Below are positions 1 to 10,846 of a DNA stretch of 64,000 bases, piece after piece. Source of the DNA: Gluconobacter vitians (GTDB taxonomy: Bacteria; Pseudomonadota; Alphaproteobacteria; Acetobacterales; Acetobacteraceae); assembly GCF_015244565.1 (NCBI RefSeq), contig NZ_JABCQG010000015.1, positions 1-64,000 on the forward strand. The letters are read 5' to 3'. A program made the translations under genes and the position numbers. The notes beneath the pieces are model-generated. The model worked only from the letters and a program-made list of their open reading frames with translations, did no database searches and had not been told where the DNA came from. Each line of letters opens with the position of its first letter. Position 1 is the first letter of the stretch.

Positions 1-2
1 CT

Positions 3-245
3 CTGGGCACCTCCGCGGTCAGTTCCGGAACTGGAATCAATGCCGGGATGGGAACCGTTCCTCTTTGGATCGGTGGCCAGCCAAATTGTAACACGGGGGC
101 CCAGGCAGGCACGACCGCTGCCCAGACTGGCACAGTGCAGCATGCCTTTACGGGGATCTGGGACTACGCCCTGCCGGATACGGAATTGTCATCCGTCCAG
201 TCTCTCCTGCAGTCCTGGGGCACGAAATATGGACGATCGTTCTGA
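3..245 (+). CDS. C-terminal end of a phage structural (tail/lectin-like) protein, partial
   Basis: The reading frame is open from the first bases and ends at 245, so the start lies outside the window. The visible 80 residues are rich in Gly, Thr and Ser, then end in a pattern like the last strand and helix of LamG/concanavalin-like modules (IWDYALPDTELSSVQSLLQS followed by WGTKYG). Such modules are common on phage tail or receptor-binding proteins. An intrinsic terminator follows 25 bases after the stop. Function is inferred from this pattern and from the lysis-type genes downstream; the protein could also be a bacterial surface protein. Confidence 0.5.
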   Translation: MGTSAVSSGTGINAGMGTVPLWIGGQPNCNTGAQAGTTAAQTGTVQHAFTGIWDYALPDTELSSVQSLLQSWGTKYGRSF

Positions 246-269
246 TCCTTCCCATCCCCTGTCTCACCT

Positions 270-292
270 CCGCCTTCCGAGGCGGTTTTTTT
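270..292 (+). terminator. intrinsic terminator after the tail-like gene
   Basis: A perfect 5-bp stem (ccgcc/ggcgg) with a 6-base loop is followed by seven T. It ends only four bases before the ggagg that serves the next gene, so the next gene needs readthrough or RNA processing to be expressed from upstream. Confidence 0.75.
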
Positions 293-305
293 ATTGGAGG
301 GGTGC

Positions 306-629
306 ATGCCCGAAGAAGGTGCACTCGTTGACGAGTGTGTTCGCAGGCCCGAATTTGAGCGGCACCTCGACGAGTTCAGGGCGGTAGAGAAGCAGGTTAC
401 CCGTCATGAGGTCCTGCTGTCTCAGCAGGCGGCAATAGCACAGGAACAGAATCGGAAACTGGAAACGATTCAGGTGACGCTTGATAGGCAAGCGGAGAAC
501 CGGAACCAGCGCGATCAAGCCATTAAAAATGCCATCTGGGCAGCCAATACCATTGGGCCGAAAGCTCTCGGGATAGTCACCCTTGCGCTTGCGGCAATTT
601 ATGCATGGATGAAAGGGCACTTGGGATGA
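306..629 (+). CDS. small coiled-coil protein with C-terminal membrane anchor (phage, XhlA/holin-accessory-like)
   Basis: 107 residues from the ATG at 306, chosen because ggagg lies at 296-300; a TTG at 294 is in frame but overlaps that site. The middle (about residues 25-75) is charged and heptad-like with many Q, E, R and L, suggesting a coiled coil. The C-terminus (about 83-102, IGPKALGIVTLALAAIYAW) is one hydrophobic helix followed by basic residues. This layout matches small phage lysis-accessory proteins such as XhlA-like haemolysins. It overlaps the endolysin-like gene by ATGA, indicating translational coupling. Function is inferred from layout and position. Confidence 0.6.
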   Translation: MPEEGALVDECVRRPEFERHLDEFRAVEKQVTRHEVLLSQQAAIAQEQNRKLETIQVTLDRQAENRNQRDQAIKNAIWAANTIGPKALGIVTLALAAIYAWMKGHLG

Positions 630-1105
630 CTGGCCTGAACCTCTCACAGATCAAGCGTCTGTGGATCCGGCCCGCGCTCCAGGCGATCGGGCTGGATGAC
701 CCGGCCCACGTCAACATCGTCACAGGCATTGGCCTGGTCGAGAGCGGATATGTCTGGCTCGAGCAGCTCAATGACGGGCCGGCCAAGGGATTCTGGCAGA
801 TGGAGCCGGAAACCCATGATGACATCTGGAAGAACTCTCTGCCGGCGCCATGCCGCTCCCGTGTCGCCTCGGGACTGAGCCGGTTGCTGTTTGGCCAGAA
901 GCATTCCGCTGACCTGATGGTCACGCTGCCTCTTTACGGAGCGGGCATGTGCGCCACAAAGATCCTGCTCGCCCCTGAGCCGCTTCCGGCAGCCGATGAT
1001 CCGGCCGGTCAGGCTCAGTACCACAAGCGCTGGTATAACTCTCCGCTGGGTTCGGCCTGTGCTTTGGCAAACATTCCCGAATTCCAGGCCGCCATTGCGG
1101 CGTGA
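626..1105 (+). CDS. phage endolysin-like protein (lysozyme/transglycosylase fold)
   Basis: 159 residues. The start at 626 overlaps the upstream stop as ATGA and has gaaaggg at 611-617; the earlier ATG at 605 is less likely. Residues 36-61 contain GLVESGYVWLEQL and GPAKGFWQMEP, resembling the lysozyme-like motif in which a Glu (here E39) is the catalytic acid and a Gly-Phe/Trp-Gln motif lines the sugar cleft. No signal peptide is visible, so it would need a holin to reach the wall. Two neighbours are small membrane proteins, which fits a lysis cassette. The exact glycosidase family cannot be fixed by eye. Confidence 0.65.
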   Translation: MTGLNLSQIKRLWIRPALQAIGLDDPAHVNIVTGIGLVESGYVWLEQLNDGPAKGFWQMEPETHDDIWKNSLPAPCRSRVASGLSRLLFGQKHSADLMVTLPLYGAGMCATKILLAPEPLPAADDPAGQAQYHKRWYNSPLGSACALANIPEFQAAIAA

Positions 1106-1200
1106 GTTTGCTGCTCTGGGCGCTTTGGCGCCGTCGTCTGCTGCGCCTGCGGAGTCTCGCCTGGCGCTTTTCTGACAATCCATAATCATGGAGGTCGGCC

Positions 1201-1503
1201 ATGCCCGTCATGCCGCCTGTCGTCGTCTATCATTTCAGCCAGGCATGGGACGGCTTTCCTGCCAACCGTATGGAATCTGGCTGGCATGCCCTGTCCCTGT
1301 CTCCCAACGAAATGGGGGCAGAAACCGGGGTCGTTGCGTTTCTTGCCTACTGGCATGCCGACCGGCAGTGCTGGGGAAGCGATAGTGACTGTCGCGCCCC
1401 GATCTGGGCGCTTCAGAACCGAATGTCCTATATCGGCCCGATCAGTGGGGCCTCTGCTCGGGTCACCGTCGAGCATCGACGCGGAAACGGAGCAGGACTG
1501 TGA
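1201..1503 (+). CDS. uncharacterised 100-residue phage-region protein
   Basis: I do not recognise this protein. It begins at ATG 1201 with a clear ggagg at 1190-1194. It is rich in Trp and aromatic residues (HFSQAWDGF, WHAL, LAYWHAD), has two Cys around residues 58-64 (CWGSDSDC) that could pair, and ends in a basic tail. There is no signal peptide or membrane helix. Its stop overlaps the GTG start of the exported protein downstream (GTGA), so it appears to be the first gene of a coupled three-gene unit that ends in the GH66 enzyme. The 95 bases before it contain only a short GC hairpin. Confidence 0.6.
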   Translation: MPVMPPVVVYHFSQAWDGFPANRMESGWHALSLSPNEMGAETGVVAFLAYWHADRQCWGSDSDCRAPIWALQNRMSYIGPISGASARVTVEHRRGNGAGL

Positions 1504-2339
1504 AATACAGGTATCTCTCTCTCCTGTTGTGCGTTTTCCCTGCGACAGTTCTCGCGCAGTCGATGCCGAGCGGGGTCTGCTCGTATAGGGCGACCGGAAA
1601 CCCGGCCTGTATTCAGAGCGCGCCTAATGTAGCGGCATGGCAGAAACTGAAGACCGATGTCGAAAATGGTAAGCTGAACTCACCAACGATCAATCAGCGG
1701 AGCATCACGACAGCTCCCCTCCAGCAATCTGATGTCGATGCGGTGAACGGTGTGCTGGGGATCCATGCCGATGGTGGTGTCACAGTCTCCGGACCTGTCG
1801 GAACCCCTGCCGGGACGTTTGGTGCGCCCCAGTCGGGCAGTAATCTGGGGACGGGTTCTCAGACATATTTTGCACCGGACCCGGTTTTCCAAGGCAGCGC
1901 GGTCATTCAGGGAAATGCCCCACTTCTCCGGTTTCGGAGCGTCTTCAGTCCGAACAATTTCACCATCTGGCAGGACCAATCCGGTGCTGCAAATTTCAGC
2001 GTCAACAATCCGACCTCGGGCGCCATTAATCTCTTCGGGCATAACGTGAATATCGGGGGATCGTCTGCGGGCGCAGTCCTCGGCTTCTATGGCGGCGGAG
2101 CAATGGGGCCGATGGAAGAGTGGCAGGCATCCGATGGTCAGGGATATCTTCAGACCAACGGATACAATCTGAATCTCTCGGCTGGGACGGGACGGCTGGT
2201 ATTTGGCAGCCCCATTCAGGTTGGTACCAGTTCCTTCACGGCCGACATCACCAAATGCGGCAGTTTGTCCGGGGCAAAAGGCTGCCTGATTTTTCGCGAT
2301 CCAGCAGGGAATGAGAGTTATGCGCCGGCGTTTCAGTAA
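1500..2339 (+). CDS. secreted beta-rich protein of unknown function, coupled to the GH66 gene
   Basis: 279 residues starting at GTG 1500, which overlaps the previous stop. The N-terminus has a positive start, a hydrophobic core (YLSLLLCVFPATVLA) and an Ala-X-Ala-type site at about residue 19: a standard signal peptide. The mature part is Gly/Ser/Asn rich with repeated short hydrophobic strands (about 95-265), as in fibre-like or beta-helical proteins. Two Cys near the C-terminus (KCGSLSGAKGC) may form a disulfide. The GH66 gene begins 20 bases before its stop. A surface or polysaccharide-binding role is only a guess. Confidence 0.6.
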   Translation: MKYRYLSLLLCVFPATVLAQSMPSGVCSYRATGNPACIQSAPNVAAWQKLKTDVENGKLNSPTINQRSITTAPLQQSDVDAVNGVLGIHADGGVTVSGPVGTPAGTFGAPQSGSNLGTGSQTYFAPDPVFQGSAVIQGNAPLLRFRSVFSPNNFTIWQDQSGAANFSVNNPTSGAINLFGHNVNIGGSSAGAVLGFYGGGAMGPMEEWQASDGQGYLQTNGYNLNLSAGTGRLVFGSPIQVGTSSFTADITKCGSLSGAKGCLIFRDPAGNESYAPAFQ

Positions 2340-4278
2340 TGCGCTGTCTGTTCTGGCAGTCTTGTTTTGTATCGGCCGTGCCTATGCGTCCGGACCGGCT
2401 CTGACATCCACAATCATTCAGAGCATCAATACGGATCGCGCGATCTATAACCAGAACGATACAGCTCTGGTCGATGTCACCCTCAACAACAAGACCGGCT
2501 CCGTGTTCAGTGGGAATGTGACTGCCACGGTTTCGGGGCGCGGCGTTGCGATCGGATATCCGATCAATGCCTCTGTCTCGTCTCTGGCTGTTGGTGCGAC
2601 CGCAGACGTGATCCTGAAGATCCCTGTCCGGCAGGTCGTCCAGTGGCAGGGATATTTCGTCAACATTGCGGTCACTGACGCCAGCGGGACCCAGATCGAT
2701 CAGCAGGCAACGGCGATCGATGAAAGTCCGGACTGGTGGACCTATCCCCGGCAGTGTTGGTTCGTCGGTGCTTTCACGGATTGGGGTGGATGGAACCCAA
2801 GCACGATTTACGGGACGCCCGAAAGCGACATCGACAGCCTGAACGCCTACAAGTGCAATAACCTTCAGGTTTATAACCTGCTCTACCGCTGGCATCTGCC
2901 CATGTCCGGGGCAGAATCCTACGTCAACGGCGATGGCATGACCGTCAGCGTCCCGCTCATGCGACAGGCCATTGCGTCGGCCAAAAAGCGCGGCATGGGC
3001 ACGCTGATGTACATGCCGATCTACTCGGCCAATAAAGGCATTGCCCCGAACTTTCAAAACGATGGTGCAGGCGTCAATCTCGCCTGGGCCGTGTTCACGA
3101 ACAACTGCGGTGCGACGAACTCCTGCACGGTCTCCGATGCATGGAATTTCAGCACCAACATTGCGATCATGAATACCCAGAACGGGAACTGGCAATATTA
3201 TTGGGCCGAGCAGGTCAAAGAGTGGCAAAAAGAACTAGGATTTGATGGTCCCTTTGGAGACACGTACGGGACAATTTCCATACCTCTTTGGGATATCAAC
3301 GGCGCCCGAATGGACAATTCGAAGATGTATTCTTCGTTCATAACGGCCGTCACAGATCGAACGAACATGCCGATGGTGATCAATCCTGCCGGTTCGTACG
3401 AAGAGCAGGATCTGGTTCAGTCCGGGCGCGAGGCATACCATTTTGTTGAGCGGTGGAATAACTCATCTGACATTGGAAACTTCGGTGACTTCCTGACCAA
3501 GGCGCGACAGGTTTGGGGGTGGGCAAACCGCACACCAAACAATATCGGCCTTGACTGGGATATGGGCATGAACAAGACGCTCGGTGCGTCTTCGTCCTGC
3601 TCGATCAATGGCGGCTCGACAGCCTGCACATTCAACACCCCGGGCGTGCTCTATCAGGAGGCCACCATGCTGGCCACGGGCGCGCATCATGCGTGGATTG
3701 TCGACGGTCAAATGGCTCCCGGAAACGGCGCTCGCTTCATCAGCAATGATTATTATCCAATCGGGAATCTCCTGACGCCAGGTGCGGACATGGTGCAGGC
3801 CGAATACGATTATCAGACCTTCGGTGTGGCCTATGAGAAACTGCTGCGGCTGAATATCGGAACTGATGCCGTAGCTGATCCGTCGATCACATCGGGCGCA
3901 ACCGGCAGCACGGCGGCGGCTGCGGGAAAGGTCTGGCTGATCCAGAACTATCGCAGCGGGACCGATATCCTGCACCTGCTAAATTATCAGCAAATGAGTG
4001 CCACCTCGTTCTCAGATGTGAATGACAATGCTGCCAATGCGGCAGCTCCCACGACAACCGGCGCACTCCAGATCAAGATGTATGTTGGCGGGGGCACACT
4101 CGGGAACCTCTACACGGCCAGCCCGGATGTAAATCATGGTGCTCCGGTCCAGCTGACCTACACCACGGCAACCGACACGTCGGGCAAGTACATCACCTTC
4201 ACGCTGCCGTCCCTCAAATTCTGGGACATGGTCTGGCTGGAGGACAGCATTGGGCAGAGCGATTACGCGACGCCCTGA
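2320..4278 (+). CDS. secreted glycoside hydrolase family 66, dextranase-type enzyme
   Basis: 652 residues from ATG 2320, preferred over ATG 2311 because aggga at 2306-2310 is well spaced from it. Order: signal peptide (about 1-25), Ig-like beta domain (about 27-125, beginning TDRAIYNQNDTALVDVTL), a TIM-barrel-like region (about 140-490) and a C-terminal beta domain. GH66 hallmarks are visible: NTQNGNWQYYWAEQ, FDGPFGDTYG with D314 as likely nucleophile, AYHFVERWNN with E377 as likely acid/base, and ISNDYYP then FGVAYEKLLR. GH66 enzymes cleave alpha-1,6-glucan (dextran) or make cyclic isomaltooligosaccharides; the CBM35 insertion of the cyclising type is not evident, so endo-dextranase is more likely. 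It sits in a phage lysis region. Confidence 0.8.
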   Translation: MRRRFSNALSVLAVLFCIGRAYASGPALTSTIIQSINTDRAIYNQNDTALVDVTLNNKTGSVFSGNVTATVSGRGVAIGYPINASVSSLAVGATADVILKIPVRQVVQWQGYFVNIAVTDASGTQIDQQATAIDESPDWWTYPRQCWFVGAFTDWGGWNPSTIYGTPESDIDSLNAYKCNNLQVYNLLYRWHLPMSGAESYVNGDGMTVSVPLMRQAIASAKKRGMGTLMYMPIYSANKGIAPNFQNDGAGVNLAWAVFTNNCGATNSCTVSDAWNFSTNIAIMNTQNGNWQYYWAEQVKEWQKELGFDGPFGDTYGTISIPLWDINGARMDNSKMYSSFITAVTDRTNMPMVINPAGSYEEQDLVQSGREAYHFVERWNNSSDIGNFGDFLTKARQVWGWANRTPNNIGLDWDMGMNKTLGASSSCSINGGSTACTFNTPGVLYQEATMLATGAHHAWIVDGQMAPGNGARFISNDYYPIGNLLTPGADMVQAEYDYQTFGVAYEKLLRLNIGTDAVADPSITSGATGSTAAAAGKVWLIQNYRSGTDILHLLNYQQMSATSFSDVNDNAANAAAPTTTGALQIKMYVGGGTLGNLYTASPDVNHGAPVQLTYTTATDTSGKYITFTLPSLKFWDMVWLEDSIGQSDYATP

Positions 4279-4303
4279 TGGCTTTTCATTGCCTCAAACT
4301 CAG

Positions 4304-4323
4304 CCGCCTTCGGGCGGTTTTTT
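4304..4323 (+). terminator. intrinsic terminator after the GH66 gene
   Basis: A ccgcc-ttcg-ggcgg hairpin with a stable UUCG loop is followed by six T. It lies 25 bases after the GH66 stop and just before the ggag of the holin-like gene. Confidence 0.8.
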
Positions 4324-4341
4324 CATATCTGGAGAACTGAA

Positions 4342-4674
4342 ATGGACTGGACGTCCCTGTTCCAGACGGTCCTGCCGTATCTGCCTGCGCAGTATGCGGG
4401 TGACCTCGTCTCGATCCTCACCTTCCTGATCGCAGCTGCCGCCCTGGCGATGCGGTTCTGGAAGCCGCCGGCGGCCGGCAGCAAGATGGCGCTGCTCTAC
4501 AAGGCCGTTTCCGCACTGGCCCAGTCCAGGGGCTGGAATACGAACGCCTATCAGCCCGATGCCAAGGCCCTGATGATCCCGGCCGATGCCAGCCGCACGA
4601 TCGAGGCCGTCAAGCTGGGCCTCGATCCGGCCTCCACCCATCCCAAGGCCGGAAAGCCTCCGGAGCCTGGCTGA
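4342..4674 (+). CDS. holin-like small membrane protein
   Basis: 110 residues with ggag at 4331-4334 before the ATG. There is one clear hydrophobic helix at about residues 21-39 (GDLVSILTFLIAAAALAMRF), a short hydrophobic N-terminus that could form a second, and a hydrophilic, proline-rich C-terminal tail. Size and layout are like phage holins or holin partners, and the gene sits within reach of an endolysin-like gene. No family motif can be read, so holin is an inference from form and location. Confidence 0.5.
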   Translation: MDWTSLFQTVLPYLPAQYAGDLVSILTFLIAAAALAMRFWKPPAAGSKMALLYKAVSALAQSRGWNTNAYQPDAKALMIPADASRTIEAVKLGLDPASTHPKAGKPPEPG

Positions 4675-4757
4675 CTGAACCCTCGTGCGGGTCCTGGCTC
4701 CATCATCCTGATCGCCGGAGGAGGCAGCGCGCGCGCTGTCAGACCGGCTCTGTCCAT

Positions 4758-4781
4758 GGCGTCCTTCGGGGCGCCTTTTTT
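4758..4781 (+). terminator. intrinsic terminator before the 100-residue gene
   Basis: A 7-bp stem (ggcgtcc/gggcgcc, one G-T pair) with a ttcg loop is followed by six T. The next gene's gggagg begins three bases after the T-tract. Confidence 0.8.
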
Positions 4782-4794
4782 ATGGGAGGCCCCT

Positions 4795-5097
4795 GTGGCT
4801 GATCTGAATTCCCTGACTTCTCTGCAGACGCTCGTCACGACCCTGGCGGGCAAGCATGAAAACGCTGCCGTCAAGCAGGACCTTGCCCTGGTGGGTACGG
4901 CCGTCTCGCTGCTGGCCCAGACGCTGGTTCCACGCCTCGATCCGTCCCTGAACCTGGCGGGCATCGATGCCGGTCTGGCCAAGGCCTTTGACGGAATCAC
5001 CGATACCGTGACCGCCATCGAAGCCAAGGTCACGACCGAAGCCGGCACAAACGCCGATCCTTCCACGACACAGACGGAGGTCTCCGCCAATGCGTAA
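4795..5097 (+). CDS. small soluble protein of unknown function (phage region)
   Basis: 100 residues from GTG 4795, chosen because gggagg lies at 4784-4789; an in-frame ATG at 4756 would start upstream of the terminator stem. The sequence is Ala/Thr/Leu rich and looks helical (SLTSLQTLVTTLAGKHENAA), with no signal peptide or membrane helix. Its end overlaps the start of the lipoprotein gene, so the two are translationally coupled. I do not recognise the family; a structural or assembly role is possible. Confidence 0.55.
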   Translation: MADLNSLTSLQTLVTTLAGKHENAAVKQDLALVGTAVSLLAQTLVPRLDPSLNLAGIDAGLAKAFDGITDTVTAIEAKVTTEAGTNADPSTTQTEVSANA

Positions 5098-5590
5098 CCG
5101 CTTCCTCTCCCTCGCTATGGGCGCCACGATGCTCGTCTCAGTTGCGGCCTGTAGCACGACGGCAAACACGGCCACATTCAACACGGCCGCGCTCAACAAC
5201 GACGCCACGGCCATCGCCTATGCCGTCCAGGCGATCGAGGGTATTCCGGATCTGGAAAGCCACCTGTCCACCACGGACAAGGCCAAGTTCGACAACCTGG
5301 TCGCACAGATCAAGAGCGTCACGGCCCAGGTCGCCGCCAACTCGAACGGCTCGATCACGGTGGCGACCGGCAAGGACTGGGCCAAGTCGCTCGGCGCGGA
5401 TCTGGAAACCCTACTGGCGATCGCGACGCCGATCGTAAAGACCTATTCGCCTTCCGCCGCCAATTACATGACGACGGTCGAGGCGATGATTCCGCTGGTC
5501 GAGGCGCTGGCCGGTGTCACGGCATCCCCGTATGCCGCTCCGGTGCAGTCTCCGGAGCTGATCCGCGCCCGGATCTATCAGGGCGTCTGA
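5090..5590 (+). CDS. predicted lipoprotein of unknown function (phage region)
   Basis: 166 residues with a lipoprotein signal: a basic start, hydrophobic stretch, then lipobox VAAC with Cys at residue 21. The mature protein is Ala/Thr rich and appears helical (about 35-150), without repeats or motifs I can name. It overlaps the 100-residue gene by eight bases. Outer-membrane lipoproteins in phage lysis regions can be spanin subunits, but spanin o-type proteins are usually shorter and proline rich, so that role is uncertain. A strong terminator follows. Confidence 0.6.
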   Translation: MRNRFLSLAMGATMLVSVAACSTTANTATFNTAALNNDATAIAYAVQAIEGIPDLESHLSTTDKAKFDNLVAQIKSVTAQVAANSNGSITVATGKDWAKSLGADLETLLAIATPIVKTYSPSAANYMTTVEAMIPLVEALAGVTASPYAAPVQSPELIRARIYQGV

Positions 5591-5614
5591 CCTTTCGGTC
5601 CTGACTATCAGCAA

Positions 5615-5648
5615 GGGGGAGTGGCTTCGGCTGCTCCCCTCTTTTTTT
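5615..5648 (+). terminator. strong intrinsic terminator
   Basis: An 11-bp stem running from ggggga to ctcccc around a ttcg loop is followed by seven T. The cggag of the peptidase gene starts six bases after it, repeating the terminator-then-RBS pattern of this block. Confidence 0.85.
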
Positions 5649-5667
5649 GTTTCCGGAGATCCAGCAC

Positions 5668-6432
5668 ATGAGTGCACCATTTGTCGGCCGCTGCCTGGGC
5701 AAGCGTGCTCCGAAGCATGATCCGCGGACTTACCGCCTCGGCCGGGTGCTGGCCATCCATCTGCCGTCCGTGCCGGCTGAACGCGACTGGTCGCAGAATG
5801 TGCCCTATCAGATGTGGGGCAATGACCGCTTTGGTTGTTGTGCCTTTGCCGCCCATGCCGCCCTGGTGGCGACCTGGACCAAGGCTGCGCAGGGTCTGGT
5901 CATGCTCTCGGCCGAAACCGTGCTGCAAAACTATGCGCAGGTCACGGGATTCGATCCGGCCACGGGTGAGAACGATAATGGCACTGTCCTCCTGGACGAA
6001 CTGAACGCCTGGCGGAAAGAGGGCTTACATCGGCCCGGGCAGACGCGCGACTACCTGACAGCCTATGGCTCAATCGTTCCCACCGACGTGGTCGGCATTC
6101 GCCGTGCCATTGCCTATCTCGGCGGCGTGCTGGCGGGCGTGCAGGTGCCACAGGGCTTTCTTGATCTGGGCCTTGGTGAAACCTGGGACTGGAATGCCAT
6201 CTCAGACCATACGCCAGCCGGCGGCCATGCCATCGCACTCGTGGGCTACAATCCGGACGGCGTGTTCTTCAACACCTGGGGCGCCCGCACCTTCATGCCC
6301 TGGAACACCTTCACGCGGATTGCGGACGAGGCTTACGGCCTGCTGTCGCGGGAGAACTGGCTGGGTGTGCCGGGTTATTCCCCGAACGGGGAAGAATTCG
6401 AATCCTTGCTGGCGGAAGTGAGGGCGGCGTGA
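5668..6432 (+). CDS. papain-like (C1-type) cysteine peptidase homologue
   Basis: 254 residues from ATG 5668 with cggag at 5654-5658. The papain-like triad can be placed: Cys58 in WGNDRFGCCAFAA (comparable with the GNDxxGDC form of phage-borne members), His187 in GGHAIALVGYN and Asn202 in FNTWGA. There is no signal peptide. Such proteins are found in phages and bacteria and could process virion proteins or attack peptides in the envelope. It overlaps the following lipoprotein gene by four bases (GTGA), so the two are probably made together. Peptidase fold is fairly secure; substrate is unknown. Confidence 0.65.
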   Translation: MSAPFVGRCLGKRAPKHDPRTYRLGRVLAIHLPSVPAERDWSQNVPYQMWGNDRFGCCAFAAHAALVATWTKAAQGLVMLSAETVLQNYAQVTGFDPATGENDNGTVLLDELNAWRKEGLHRPGQTRDYLTAYGSIVPTDVVGIRRAIAYLGGVLAGVQVPQGFLDLGLGETWDWNAISDHTPAGGHAIALVGYNPDGVFFNTWGARTFMPWNTFTRIADEAYGLLSRENWLGVPGYSPNGEEFESLLAEVRAA

Positions 6433-7028
6433 GGGCGCTCGCTCTCTGTGGCCTGCTGGTTCTGTCGGCGTGTTCGGCCGGATCCGTCGCGCCCGTCACG
6501 ATCAGTCAGGCCATCGCCGGCGTGCAGGATGACCTGACAAAGACCGGCGCAGTCAGTGTGTCCAGTGTCCAAAGCTGGACGGCCGATCAGGCTGGCCGGT
6601 TCGATGCCAACGTGCGGGCGCTCCAGTGTGTCCAGCACACGTCTGACCCGGTCGTGGCCATGATTGCCGGACCGGTCACGATGAACCTGTCTGGGACCTT
6701 CAGTCAGTCGGGTCAGTTCTCCGTCTCGGCTTCAAGTCTTACCCCTGTTTTTGGTTTGCAGGCTGAAGCCATCCGGTCGCGCGGTCAGACCCTGAACGTC
6801 CCGGTGCAGTTCGTCCCGCTGTCTGCCCTGCCTGATGCAGAGCTGGCGCGGCAAGTCGGATACGCTGGGGCGCTTCTGGGCCAGAAAGATACGGTCCGGC
6901 AGGACGTGTCAGGGCGGATTGAGGCGGACCGCACGGCGCTGGCCGCACATGTCGGGCTTCTCATTTCCGGGTATGCCGGAATCTGTCCCGCCGGCAAGGC
7001 GCGGCCGTTCGTCGGGGCGCGGCGGTGA
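6429..7028 (+). CDS. predicted lipoprotein, last gene of the phage-like block
   Basis: 199 residues from GTG 6429, which overlaps the peptidase stop. The N-terminus is a lipoprotein signal with lipobox LSAC and Cys at residue 15. The mature part is Ser/Thr/Val/Gln rich. Two Cys lie far apart (near residues 67 and 190) and could form a disulfide. I do not recognise the family. It is coupled to the peptidase, so it could be a membrane anchor, inhibitor or substrate for it. Its stop codon touches the first unit of the palindrome array at 7027-7131. Confidence 0.55.
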   Translation: MRALALCGLLVLSACSAGSVAPVTISQAIAGVQDDLTKTGAVSVSSVQSWTADQAGRFDANVRALQCVQHTSDPVVAMIAGPVTMNLSGTFSQSGQFSVSASSLTPVFGLQAEAIRSRGQTLNVPVQFVPLSALPDAELARQVGYAGALLGQKDTVRQDVSGRIEADRTALAAHVGLLISGYAGICPAGKARPFVGARR

Positions 7029-7131
7029 ACCATTGGGGAATCCCCAAGGGTTCAGTCGTCAAGGAATCCTTGATTGCTGAACTGTCCGGAATTTCCGGAT
7101 GGTTGAACTGTAAAGCATTCCTTGACAGTTC
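7027..7131. repeat. array of four 26-base tandem units, each a palindrome
   Basis: Four dyads have centres at 7040, 7066, 7092 and 7118, exactly 26 bases apart. Outer arms approximate gaactgt...acagttc. The inner arms differ between units yet stay self-complementary: ttgggga/tccccaa (7033-7047), tcaagga/tccttga (7059-7073), tccggaa/ttccgga (7085-7099), and gaactgt/acagttc flanking the fourth. Across 13-base half sites I count 12, 10, 10 and 11 matches. The array starts at the stop codon of the last phage-like gene. It could be an operator array, iterons, or a set of RNA hairpins. Confidence 0.85.
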
Positions 7132-7465
7132 GCTTTGACGTTAACGAAACGCCGTTTTCATAACACCAAGCCCGTTAGCGTTAACTACTGATCGATAAAT
7201 GAGATGATTTGCAGGGCTTCCACCTACCAAACTGTTTTACAAAAACGCTCTAAGTCATTGATTCTAGGTGGTGGCAAATCAAGTGTTTTACATTGTAACC
7301 GGTTGATTTTATTGAAAAGACCTATACCTCTCGCGGACACCATACTTCCTGCAACATTCTTTCTGCAGGGGTAGAAAAATTCTCTCTATTGCCGATCCTG
7401 CAAGCCAAATATAACGGCATACCCGCTATATGGCGTTCGTCTTTCGTGCTTAAGGTTTCAGGCTT
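7132..7465. other. AT-rich non-coding stretch between phage-like block and acs
   Basis: No supported gene lies here. It holds an inverted-repeat pair (listed separately), two copies of tgttttaca (7233-7241 and 7284-7292) and presumably the acs promoter. I see no tRNA that would mark an integration site. The composition is clearly more AT-rich than both flanks. Confidence 0.6.
7206..7280. repeat. two-part inverted repeat
   Basis: gatttgc (7206-7212) and ccaccta (7220-7226) on the left are matched by taggtgg (7265-7271) and gcaaatc (7274-7280) on the right, giving two 7-bp arms with unequal spacing (7 against 2 bases). The long AT-rich centre makes a simple terminator unlikely; a binding region or recombination site is possible. 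Confidence 0.5.
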
Positions 7466-9373
7466 ATGTCTTCATCCCCTCATCCTCATACATTCCGCCT
7501 GTCTCCGGTGGCCTATGAAGCCCTGACAGACCATGCGGCTGCCGAGCCTGAGCTTTACTGGGAAGGTGAGAGCAGAAGGCTGAACTGGAATGCCGAGCCC
7601 AGTCAGGCCTACTGCGAAAAACAGGGCTGGTTTGCGGATGGGGCTCTGAATGCAAGCGTGAACTGCCTTGACCGGCATCTTGCGACACGCGCCGATCAGG
7701 CGGCTCTGATCTGGCAGGCGGAAGACGCCGATCGGGTCCTGACCTTCACATACCAAACCCTGCATGAGCAGGTCTGCCGTCTGGCGAACGTTCTGCGCAG
7801 CCAGGGCGTTCAGGCTGGGGATCGAGTGGCCATTCATCTCCCTTCTGTTCCCGAAGGCCTGATCGCGATGCTGGCCTGCACACGGATCGGGGCCATCCAT
7901 GTTGTCCTGTTCGGCGGTTTTTCTGCGGAAGCCATTGCTGACAGGCTGGTCGATAGCGGTGCGGTTCTGGTTATTACCGCCAATGTCGGTCGCCGAGGCG
8001 CCAAACGGATTGCGTTCAAGACAGCGCTCGACGCCGCTCTGGACCTGCATCCGGAGGCTCATACCGTCCGCCACGTTCTGGTCGTGAGCGTGACCGATGA
8101 TGATGTGAGCATGCAGGCCGATCGGGACATATGGCTTTCGCCTCTGCTGAAAGACGCTGCGCCAGACTGTGCTCCTCAGGACATGCCTTCTTCCGCCCCT
8201 CTTTTCCTGCTGTACACATCCGGCAGCACCGGCAAACCCAAGGGCATCGTACACGGCACGGGTGGCTATCTGGTCTGGGCGTCCTATACGCACGAACTGG
8301 TTTTTGACCATCAGGAGGGTGATATCTTCTGGTGCACGGCCGATATCGGCTGGATCACAGGTCATACCTACGGCGTTTACGGCCCCCTGCTTAATGGCGG
8401 AACGGTCCTTCTGTTCGAGGGCATGCCCTCCCATCCCGGTCCGGGCCGCTGGTGGAATGTGATTCAGGACCACAAGGTCACGACGTTCTATACCTCTCCA
8501 ACCGCCATCCGCGCGCTCATGCGCGAAGGCAACGATGTGGTGCAGCGTTACGACCTGTCCTCCCTGCGGGTTCTGGGGACGGTTGGCGAACCTATCAGCC
8601 ATGAGGCCTGGTCCTGGTTCAATGACCATGTTGGTGGAGGCCGTTGCGCCTTTGTCGATACCTGGTGGCAGACCGAGAGCGGCGGGATCATGATTTCTCC
8701 TGTACCCGGTGCCGTCAGGGAGAAGCCGGCATCCGCAACGCTGCCCCTCCCCGGCGTTCATCCCGTTCTTCTGGATGAACGTGGCACGCCGAAGGGTGGT
8801 GCGACCGAAGGTGTGCTCTGTCTCAAGGGATCTTGGCCAGGGCGGGCGCTCACGATCTGGAATGACGCGGCCCTTTTCGAGCGCACTTATCTTCAGCCTT
8901 ATCCCGGCTATTATTTCACGGGTGACGGCGCCCGGCGTGACGAAGACGGCTATTACTGGATTACCGGACGTGTGGATGACGTCATCAATGTTTCCGGCCA
9001 TCGGATAGGTTCCGCCGAAATCGAGGATGCGCTGGCAACTGAGCTGGCCATTGCCGAGAGTGCTGCAATCGGCATCCCGCATGATCTCAAGGGCCAGGGT
9101 ATCGTCGTTTATGTCGTTCCCCGCGATGATGCTCCGGACGACCTGCATCTGCGGGCCGCAAAAGCCATCACGTCAAAGGTCGGTCGCTATGCCGCGCCTG
9201 AGCATATCCATGTCGTGCCGGATCTGCCCAAGACACGATCCGGGAAAAGTGTCCGGCGCCTGCTCCGCAAGATTGCCTGTGGAGAGACCGAAGGCTTTGG
9301 GGACCTCTCTACCCTCGCCGATCCGGAGATCGTGGCAACACTGATCAGCATCATCCAGGCTCCGAAGAACTGA
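7466..9373 (+). CDS. acsA: acetyl-CoA synthetase
   Basis: 635 residues, the usual length for AMP-forming acetyl-CoA synthetase, which activates acetate to acetyl-AMP and then acetyl-CoA in the cytoplasm. The N-terminal ACAS segment ends in LYWEGESRRLNW-like sequence. The ATP/AMP loop YTSGSTGKPKG starts at residue 250, WWQTESGGIMISP marks the adenylation core, and YYFTGDGARRDEDGYYWITG is followed by the hinge. The regulatory acetylation lysine is K594 in PKTRSGKSVRR; the Ser after it is usually Ile. The gene stands alone on the plus strand. Propionate could also be a substrate, but the C-terminus and length favour acetate. Confidence 0.9.
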   Translation: MSSSPHPHTFRLSPVAYEALTDHAAAEPELYWEGESRRLNWNAEPSQAYCEKQGWFADGALNASVNCLDRHLATRADQAALIWQAEDADRVLTFTYQTLHEQVCRLANVLRSQGVQAGDRVAIHLPSVPEGLIAMLACTRIGAIHVVLFGGFSAEAIADRLVDSGAVLVITANVGRRGAKRIAFKTALDAALDLHPEAHTVRHVLVVSVTDDDVSMQADRDIWLSPLLKDAAPDCAPQDMPSSAPLFLLYTSGSTGKPKGIVHGTGGYLVWASYTHELVFDHQEGDIFWCTADIGWITGHTYGVYGPLLNGGTVLLFEGMPSHPGPGRWWNVIQDHKVTTFYTSPTAIRALMREGNDVVQRYDLSSLRVLGTVGEPISHEAWSWFNDHVGGGRCAFVDTWWQTESGGIMISPVPGAVREKPASATLPLPGVHPVLLDERGTPKGGATEGVLCLKGSWPGRALTIWNDAALFERTYLQPYPGYYFTGDGARRDEDGYYWITGRVDDVINVSGHRIGSAEIEDALATELAIAESAAIGIPHDLKGQGIVVYVVPRDDAPDDLHLRAAKAITSKVGRYAAPEHIHVVPDLPKTRSGKSVRRLLRKIACGETEGFGDLSTLADPEIVATLISIIQAPKN

Positions 9374-9393
9374 TCTGTCAGGCCTGAAAAATT

Positions 9394-9756
9394 TCAGATA
9401 TCGGTCGTTCCGGCCGGTGTCTGAACAGGAATGAACGCGCCGCTCAGAAACCCGAAGACGACGTGCAGGAAATAGACGCAGAAAGCTGCGGCCAGCAGGA
9501 CTGCAAAAAGCCGTCCGAAAATCCTGAACGACGCCACGATCAGCCCGCCCAGAAGCAGGAACAGCAGCACCGTCTGAGCCGTTCCCTGTATTCCCAGACC
9601 GGACAGCACGCTCCGCGCCATGACTTCGATGATGGCCACACCGGCTACAACCACGCCCAGCAGTCCGAGGATCAAACCCCATAACGTGTCGAGTATGGAT
9701 TGCATCACGTGATCTGGCACCATTTGAAAGAGGACAACATTACTCCACAAAGCCAT
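9394..9756 (-). CDS. small integral membrane protein of unknown function
   Basis: Up to 120 residues with three likely membrane helices: about 21-48 (LWGLILGLLGVVVAGVAII), 60-80 and 82-105. Downstream starts at 9723 and 9705 are possible; the first ATG has a purine-rich cgggga before it. No motif is recognised. It is convergent with acs and divergent from the AEC transporter gene. Confidence 0.5.
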   Translation of the reverse strand: MALWSNVVLFQMVPDHVMQSILDTLWGLILGLLGVVVAGVAIIEVMARSVLSGLGIQGTAQTVLLFLLLGGLIVASFRIFGRLFAVLLAAAFCVYFLHVVFGFLSGAFIPVQTPAGTTDI

Positions 9757-9865
9757 TCCCCGCGGCTCTGGTCAACCGTCATCTGCCATGGGGATAGACG
9801 AATGTTGGAGCGACCGTTACGAAAGGTGATCCTTTCCTGACCGGATTTTCTTTCATGGGTCTTCT

Positions 9866-10846
9866 ATGACGAACTCGCCTGCCCTGCTGCTGACGATCGT
9901 TCAGTCCATTCTCCCGATTCTCGTAACGCTGGGATTTGGATATTTCGCGGCATTCCGAAAGGATTTTGATGCGCAGCAGGCTGGTGTTCTGACACGTCTG
10001 GTCATGCTGTATGCGCTCCCGCTGGAGCTGCTGGCCTCTATCCTCAGCACTCCGCGCAATGAGGTTCTGGCAGCGGGGCCGGTTGCGGCACTGATCCTGC
10101 TGGCCATGGTCGGCGGCTATGGCATCATTTTTGCCATCCTGCGTGGCGTTCTGAAACGCCGACTGGGTGAGGCAGCGCTGATCGCGATGACCATCACCGG
10201 TCCGTCTGTTCCCTTCATCGGCATTCCTGTCTTGGGACAGATCTTCGGACCGGCCAGTTCGGTCCCCATCTCGATTGCATCCCTCGCCATGAACCTAGTG
10301 CAGTTGCCCATCACCCTGATCCTGATGGGCCATGACCGCGGCACCCGCCATCGGATCGAGACTGAAGGGGAAGCCCGGAACGAACTCCGCGAACTTCTGG
10401 GACACCTCATGCATTCCTGCCGCGAACCGGTTGTGTGGGTTCCGATGATGGCGCTTGTGCTGGTCAGTGCCGGCGCCTTCCTGCCACAGTTTCTCAAGGG
10501 TTCACTTCAACTGCTCGGCCGCACGACAGGGGGCGCGGCGCTGTTCGCGTCAGGCGTGGTGCTCTTTACCCGTCAGGTCAAATTCAGTCCGCTGGTTGGC
10601 GTCATCGTCACCGTCCGGAACATCATTATCCCTGGGATCATCTATACGCTTGCCAGAATGTGGCACCTTCCCCTGCCCGCACTGCAGGAAAGCGTGCTGA
10701 CAATGGCCATTCCCAGCGCCTCCATCAACGTCATCCTCGCCATGCGGTATCATGTTCTGGAACGTGAAATTGCATCCGTTCTGTTCTTTGGAACGTTAAG
10801 TTCAATCTTCACCATGGCGTTCTTCATTTGGCTGACAGGTGCATGA
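9866..10846 (+). CDS. AEC-family transporter (auxin efflux carrier type)
   Basis: 326 residues with about ten hydrophobic helices split into two five-helix halves around a hydrophilic loop at about 155-190 (GHDRGTRHRIETEGEARNEL). The start ILPILVTLGFGYFAAFRKDF and the end AIPSASINVILAMRYHVL match AEC permeases, whose bacterial members move organic acids such as malonate or malate. Substrate cannot be told from sequence. Its stop overlaps the ATG of the phosphatase gene, so the two are co-translated. Confidence 0.85.
   Translation: MTNSPALLLTIVQSILPILVTLGFGYFAAFRKDFDAQQAGVLTRLVMLYALPLELLASILSTPRNEVLAAGPVAALILLAMVGGYGIIFAILRGVLKRRLGEAALIAMTITGPSVPFIGIPVLGQIFGPASSVPISIASLAMNLVQLPITLILMGHDRGTRHRIETEGEARNELRELLGHLMHSCREPVVWVPMMALVLVSAGAFLPQFLKGSLQLLGRTTGGAALFASGVVLFTRQVKFSPLVGVIVTVRNIIIPGIIYTLARMWHLPLPALQESVLTMAIPSASINVILAMRYHVLEREIASVLFFGTLSSIFTMAFFIWLTGA

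Follow-up and report, generated by a model that had tools for sequence, protein, structure and literature searches.

The window, by which we mean the whole stretch of 64,000 nucleotides of Gluconobacter vitians DNA analyzed here, contains at positions 7027–7131 an unexplained non-coding array of four palindromes, which we link to RhuM, a protein family of unknown function. Each unit of the array is probably a binding site for one RhuM-type specificity, a reading based on the resemblance of most of the array palindromes to palindromes within the coding sequences of rhuM genes. In these genes the arm of the palindrome correlates with the recognition helix of the encoded protein, which provides a testable code, with the helix predicting the arm and the arm predicting the helix. 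A search of the open-access literature, with few subscription papers or preprints among the sources, returned no description of RhuM palindromes, of a helix-arm code, or of the arrays.

Structure and setting of the array

A dyad scan resolved the array into four 27-bp dyads with a pitch of exactly 26 bp, adjacent units having one base in common (Table 1). The centers are precisely those given in the first-pass annotation of this DNA. The arms, located 3–7 bases from the center, pair completely in units 1–3 (TTGGG/CCCAA, TCAAG/CTTGA, and TCCGG/CCGGA, each 5/5) and at 4/5 positions in unit 4 (TAAAG/CTTGA), which is an imperfect copy of unit 2. The annotation had also described the outer arms as keeping GAAC/GTTC; this holds for units 1 and 4, but unit 2 has CAG/CTG and unit 3 has GAAC/GTTG. 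It had further considered that such runs might be frequent by chance. Random 64-kb sequences with the first-order Markov statistics of the window, 20 in all, yielded 3 pairs in the same dyad scan but never three or more units in a row. A scan of pitches from 16 to 40 in eight sequences (seven array-bearing sequences and Acetobacter phage phiAP1) found runs of at least three units at only two spacings, 26 (seven times) and 39 (twice). The Markov windows and the pitch scan rule out a chance origin of the array.

Table 1. Features of the array and its surroundings in the window
Feature	Position	Center	Strand	Description
Last phage-like gene upstream	6429..7028		+	199 aa, PHROG phrog_28078 (unknown function); stop codon overlaps array start
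Unit 1, type A	7027..7053	7040	.	GAACCA-TTGGG-gaatc-CCCAA-GGGTTC
Unit 2, type B	7053..7079	7066	.	CAGTCG-TCAAG-gaatc-CTTGA-TTGCTG
Unit 3, type C	7079..7105	7092	.	GAACTG-TCCGG-aattt-CCGGA-TGGTTG
Unit 4, type B' (imperfect B)	7105..7131	7118	.	GAACTG-TAAAG-cattc-CTTGA-CAGTTC
Block adjoining array, GCTTTGACGTTAACGAAA...CATAACACCAAG	7132..7225		.	75% identity to part of Acetobacter phage phiAP1
Segment	7228..7343		.	93% identical to G000:C4:13759-13874 of the same genome; probably part of a phage attachment region
Acetyl-CoA-synthetase-like gene downstream	7466-9373			

As first noted, the array begins at a stop codon, unit 1 starting within the TGA (7026–7028) of the last phage-like gene, and it is bordered by a phage-like block on one side and by host genes on the other. 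The phage-like block also encodes, at 2311–4278, a 655-aa protein with a full-length match to Pfam glycosyl hydrolase family 66 (E 9e-80), unexpected company for late phage genes. The block that adjoins the array contains a partial dyad (TTTGACGTTAACGAAA...), and similar blocks adjoin arrays in several other Gluconobacter loci. Acetobacter phage phiAP1, the subject of a published paper (PMC8566455), contains the neighboring block but no array by dyad scan, and no integrase is annotated within 2.5 kb of units in the phage stretches checked; on these grounds an attachment-site element was set aside as the identity of the array. No plasmid relatives of window 6900–7300 were found.

RNA of the array folds more stably than shuffled sequences on both strands (z −5.85 and −6.60), as does RNA of four relative array stretches (z −4.30 to −7.12). 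This stability, together with the covariation of the pairs described below, would fit successive RNA hairpins at the 3' terminus of the final phage transcript that protect it, end it, or pair with rhuM mRNAs. We regard such a role as very improbable, however, because the minimum-energy fold of the window array pairs units 2 and 4 around unit 3 rather than forming four hairpins, because the array is without a match in Rfam 15 (window 1–10000, E up to 1; the single match, at 5598–5646, falls below the gathering score), and because arm type in rhuM genes follows a DNA-reading helix. For want of an Rfam match at the array, a known RNA family was likewise rejected as its identity. By eye, the units of the window have no long T run behind them of the kind that follows the G+C-rich hairpin of an intrinsic terminator. 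The first-pass annotation had offered a row of protein dimers or a row of RNA hairpins; the relation between rhuM arm and recognition helix favors the former, and the latter is not needed.

Related arrays and units in Gluconobacter and phages

Arrays of the same pitch were found in 5 of 41 genomes searched, these being the genome of the window itself, where a second array is present on contig C47 (L020:1329-1587), and the Gluconobacter genomes G017, G018 (two loci), G019, and G020, in which the arrays are located at prophage ends. The first-pass annotation had held that a lack of period or symmetry at homologous loci would speak against the feature; the homologous loci retain both. The C47 array is interrupted by an insert of approximately 115 bp with the flanks GGATGCGG...CCGCATCC, with units on either side. 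The arms of the arrays form a small alphabet (A TTGGG, B TCAAG, C TCCGG, D GTAAG, E TTGAG, F TTCGG), and the types occur in various orders, such as A-B-C-B' in the window, A-B-C-D in G017, and D-B-C-A'-E in G019. The center of the unit is mostly NANTN, and GTTSAAC is common at unit junctions. A CRISPR array, with one constant repeat and variable spacers, does not account for this organization, in which the dyad arms change and constancy resides more in the junctions.

Pairing is maintained as the arms change. Among 27 units from 8 stretches, two of them on one contig, Watson-Crick pairs were present at distances of 4, 5, and 6 bases from the center in 26, 27, and 26 units, respectively, compared to 13.8, 9.3, and 13.1 expected with independent sides. 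This near-complete pairing bears out the earlier proposal that symmetry kept under sequence change reflects selection. An alignment of 19 two-unit stretches had pairing in 95.7% of its cells and a covariation score of 0.578 vs 0.254 for shuffles, with 0 of 500 shuffles scoring as high; two of five covariation measures (pairs with double change and further pair types) were not above shuffles in these stretches. The arms are not in free drift under pairing, as they belong to a small recurrent alphabet largely common to rhuM genes. A two-unit covariance model (E up to 0.001) found matches in 5 of 249 genomes of the family, the genome of the window included; of the three matches outside the genus, the dyad scan shows a regular pair in G050 only and no regular pair in G139 and G156.

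Units are also found in phages and viral contigs. Pattern scans of viral contigs found B followed by a unit in 7 contigs, C in 83, E in 7, and B with its outer bases in at least 120, and the arms of one control (TGAAG/CTTCA) in 3. Types C, D, and F are all included in 23 of 80 distinct array sequences from the fetched loci. By BLAST, one or more units are present in named phages of Providencia, Morganella, Proteus, Vibrio, Salmonella, Escherichia, Serratia, Erwinia, Hafnia, and Mycobacterium, these matches being short and many having E values of only 0.001–0.03. The viral set comprises 209 units; of its 131 single units, 87 are spanned by an open frame of 100 aa or more, as are only 9 of its 78 array units. 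Two loci have additional features: a longer and different hairpin (AACCATTTTCC...GGAAAATGGTT, L061:4219-4248) lies behind a four-unit array, and a short contig binned as Acidobacteria (L080) contains two similar D-B pairs 1.1 kb apart, with centers at 1003/1029 and 2127/2153.

Palindromes and the recognition helix in rhuM genes

Two unit matches fell within rhuM genes, and rhuM genes were therefore fetched by protein family rather than by palindrome. In a first set of 31 rhuM genes, the best dyad averaged 9.42/10, compared to 6.85 after codon shuffling. We then used 65 distinct rhuM frames from 94 loci, the loci consisting of the best-scoring family matches and 40 chosen from one match list; frames without a YNLD-type anchor, frames with too short an N-terminus, and duplicates were left out. 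A dyad with at least 9/10 pairs is present in 59 of the 65 frames and is perfect in 44, compared to a mean of 6.75 and a maximum of 12 of 65 in 20 rounds of codon shuffling. The 6 frames below 9/10 pairs count against the binding-site reading. The dyad centers fall at four positions relative to the YNLD motif (−64, −55, −46, and −38 nt), with one additional dyad lying elsewhere. The arms differ widely yet stay complementary, and the encoded residues change along with them. Among the 65 frames the arm types are TCCGG (14), CCGAG (7), GTGCA and TTCGG (6 each), TCAAG (5), TTGCA and GTAAG (4 each), TCAAC (3), and others. As background, 372 other open frames from the same loci, each 150 aa or longer and free of overlap with recognized RhuM or Bro-N genes, included 69 with a dyad of at least 9/10 pairs; among 185 open frames of 200 aa or longer, a set unfiltered for rhuM overlap, the count was 23, falling to 8 after codon shuffling.

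Ten further RhuM genes were examined, six of which have at least 9/10 pairs; the count is 4 of 8 among those chosen without the B pattern, since two of the six (the viral TCAAG RhuM genes) came from the B pattern itself and are not independent. Below this level, genes from Streptococcus satellite Javan598 and a Gordonia phage have 8 pairs each, and the RhuM genes of Wolbachia phage WO and Ligilactobacillus have no good dyad at the site. Genes for phage regulators with the Bro-N domain (PF02498), which had been chosen as a negative control, proved to be like rhuM in having a covarying palindrome within the gene: 15 of 30 have a dyad of at least 9/10, vs 2.15 after codon shuffling. In many of these the palindrome is at a corresponding place before GGxQ...GLY, where 8 of 23 anchored frames reach at least 9/10. 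The Bro-N palindromes are unlike the array in having other arms and other outer bases. Loci L420, L428, L431, and L432 are examples of Bro-N genes with an internal palindrome of their own.

The rhuM genes and the array share most of their palindrome alphabet and the same 27-bp layout. Seven of eight perfect arm types from arrays also occur in rhuM genes, three of the eight having been search seeds taken from Gluconobacter arrays before the link to rhuM was known. Units 2–4 of the window have the layout of rhuM sites (an odd dyad of 27 bp, five-base arms at 3–7, and rhuM outer bases), and TCAAG of unit 2, TCCGG of unit 3, and the one TCAAG arm of unit 4 are known from rhuM. In a test with 2000 random-arm palindromes, the best rhuM matches of unit 2 (24/27 identical), unit 3 (25/27), and unit 4 (24/27) were reached in 0.0005, 0.005, and 0.0135 of trials, respectively; unit 1, with a best match of 19/27, was no better than random-arm palindromes (0.41). 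Several observations count against the binding-site reading. The unit 1 arm TTGGG occurs in 0 of 65 rhuM frames, and GTGCA and TTGCA, found in 10 of the 65, are absent from perfect array arms. An A-type site pattern starting with CA had no match in 398 genomes, this being a pattern that the unit A of the window, which starts with GA, could not match. The array of G017 consists of A, B, C, and D, yet its RhuM is of type GTGCA, which is missing from that array. The genome of the window has no RhuM match. In favor of the reading, RhuM was found in 5 of 26 Gluconobacter genomes, among them G007 with types B and E and G012 and G021 with type C. The array differs from the site inside rhuM in being non-coding, in having several site types, and in residing in a genome without a RhuM match.

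RhuM proteins match two models that PADLOC includes in its set of known or candidate defence proteins, PDC-S05 and PDC-S23, and the family corresponds to Pfam PF13310 (Virulence_RhuM). They are found in phages, phage satellites, plasmids, and one type I restriction locus, and some of the phage and satellite proteins are annotated as DNA-binding. RhuM has been proposed as a toxin domain of restriction-modification loci, and no DNA site is mentioned alongside the passage that makes this proposal (PMC3710099). An AlphaFold model of a viral RhuM (three sequences) has a mean pLDDT of 65.7, with residues 31–90 at 67–84, and contains helices at 29–35 and 40–52 and strands at 62–71 and 74–84. RhuM is by this model a winged helix, with the site encoding the predicted first wing strand. 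A search of the PDB by sequence found no RhuM relative, and Foldseek returned weak matches only, the best being to the DNA-binding protein DdrC of Deinococcus (E 0.0047 and 0.017).

We examined which residues of RhuM vary with the arm type, using frames with a dyad of at least 9/10: 48 of the 65 for mutual information (arm type occurring at least 3 times) and 50 for prediction (at least 2 times). Mutual information with arm type was highest at the codons of the site and at the recognition helix. Helix columns K38, Q39, N40, S42, and L43 (numbered on reference L373) gave z values of 10–15, and the two preceding residues, A36 and T37, gave 9.6 and 7.8; columns elsewhere gave at most 7.4. TCCGG is mostly found with the helix VR(T/N)(I/V)(N/S)EH (such as VRTINEH), TTCGG with K(S/A)T(I/L)SEH, GTGCA mostly with DRSV(I/V)(T/A)KH, TTGCA with (D/N)KS(V/T)I(S/Y)(K/R)H, CCGAG with DN(I/V)(G/S)LH, GTAAG mostly with TPQNI(T/I)(Q/M)H (such as TPQNITQH), TCAAG mostly with KQN(I/V)SLH (such as KQNISLH), TCAAC with KQNI(A/S)KH, and TTTCC with VPAI(T/S)KH. 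Single proteins deviate, for example L387, L391, and L393. The six further RhuM genes with at least 9/10 pairs have helices that agree with this code or come close to it: TTAGG in Aliarcobacter, GTAAG in Klebsiella, TTTCC in Streptococcus satellite Javan250 (helix seen in part only), TCAAG in two viral genes, and TTGCA in one viral gene, the helix of which is a related one.

The arm type can also be predicted from the helix. In leave-one-out prediction (n=50, kinship ignored), the helix gave 0.93, the C-terminal part 0.37, and the part before the helix 0.48, with permuted labels giving 0.129 (maximum 0.301). With six-column windows, prediction peaked at the helix (0.77–0.84), fell to 0.33–0.45 at columns 54–65, and rose again at the site codons; this poor prediction between helix and site indicates that the two are not simply inherited as one block. 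When only distant neighbors were used and identity was taken over gapped columns (n=43), the helix gave 0.83, the C-terminal part 0.02, and the part before the helix 0.16. A stricter version in which gapped columns were uncounted (n=23) gave a weaker signal, with helix windows at 0.65 and 0.53, other windows at 0.11–0.51, and site codons at up to 0.81. Taken as a whole, the sequence data make it very probable that RhuM physically binds the site in its own gene, and the units of the arrays are quite likely bound by the matching RhuM proteins. The 27-bp unit would be bound by a dimer of a RhuM-type winged helix-turn-helix protein, with the recognition helix reading the five-base arm. Each rhuM gene would hold one such site in its coding sequence, at the codons for the first wing strand, and the array would be a cluster of sites of differing specificity packed at 26 bp. 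If this is correct, the coding sequence of a gene contains a site recognized by its own product, and RhuM, with its PADLOC defence-candidate models, gains a molecular target.

Possible roles of the arrays

What the arrays do is a matter of greater doubt. Arm types are all different in 19 of 23 distinct array compositions, compared to 12.8 expected (P = 0.0008); the window array, with B and B', is one of the four compositions with a repeated type and counts against such avoidance. The array may be a multi-specific decoy, a possibility to which we give slightly less than an even chance and which we favor because one regulator would be better served by a site repeated unchanged and because RhuM is missing from the host genome. 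Phages would carry copies of RhuM sites, either one at a time or in arrays whose types mostly differ, and the array would soak up RhuM-type proteins from rival prophages, satellites, plasmids, and restriction loci. If so, this would be an added form of sequence-based competition between mobile elements. The full proposal, that RhuM reads a palindrome encoding its own wing and that phages gather the palindromes of rival rhuM genes as decoys, forming a kind of heritable record of the RhuM types encountered, is more tentative still.

Phage genomes are known to contain clusters of protein-binding sites of another kind. The stoperators of mycobacteriophage L5 and others are many protein-binding sites across phage genomes, often at gene ends, and each set repeats a single asymmetric site recognized by one repressor. 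In contrast, the array consists of palindromes of different specificity with a tight spacing of 26 bp. An operator or stoperator cluster, at which RhuM- or Bro-N-type regulators control phage or satellite transcription at gene ends and the site within rhuM is autoregulatory, is a rather unlikely explanation of our data. It would account for the position of units in five named phages, where they lie at gene ends or between them, and here directly after the last phage gene, for the annotation of some phage and satellite RhuM proteins as DNA-binding, and for the similar palindrome inside Bro-N genes. One regulator requires repeats of one type, however, and arrays mostly hold different types; the operator or stoperator set of one phage repressor was rejected on this ground. 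The lack of RhuM in the genome of the window and the location of most single units of the viral set within open frames also argue against control at gene ends.

Intergenic palindromes that have apparently been moved around are likewise known: REP/BIME and the Rickettsia palindromic elements, the latter also found inside reading frames, are each defined by a shared sequence. The arms of the array, in contrast, are discrete types tied to a protein recognition helix. Some of our observations would nonetheless fit neutral or selfish DNA, with rhuM fragments being spread by phage recombination and kept as junctions or linkers without a binding role there. Pieces of rhuM genes that span the site are found inside non-RhuM open frames, one of 83 bp (93% identical) in three related phage contigs and one of 55 bp (93% identical) in another phage contig. 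In proteins of HK639, Serratia phage Eta, and Salmonella and Escherichia phages, either EaA/DUF551/DUF550-type or unnamed, the units correspond to linker-like peptides such as NSPVIPDGW, and single B units often encode TVKESLTV or are read in the other open phase. In addition, two prophages of the genome of the window are 97% alike up to window position 7016 and diverge around the array. We nevertheless consider a purely neutral origin unlikely, and a mobile palindrome is not taken as the whole story, since a binding role is needed to account for the helix-arm code. The arms stay complementary although 69 of 78 array units of the viral set are spanned by no open frame of 100 aa and so are free of protein constraint, and the arrays avoid repeated types. 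Units stay 26 bp apart in different hosts and within two reading frames (F-C in HK639 and D-C in Eta); the D-C distance in phage Oslo is 41. As the palindrome is read in different phases and on different strands, the constraint looks to be at the level of DNA.

A binding role for the units would, if true, explain the palindromic linkers in phage genes. The linkers of lambdoid EaA/DUF551/DUF550-type proteins (L299–L302 and L304–L306) come from the same palindromes, an observation that may bear on protein shuffling.
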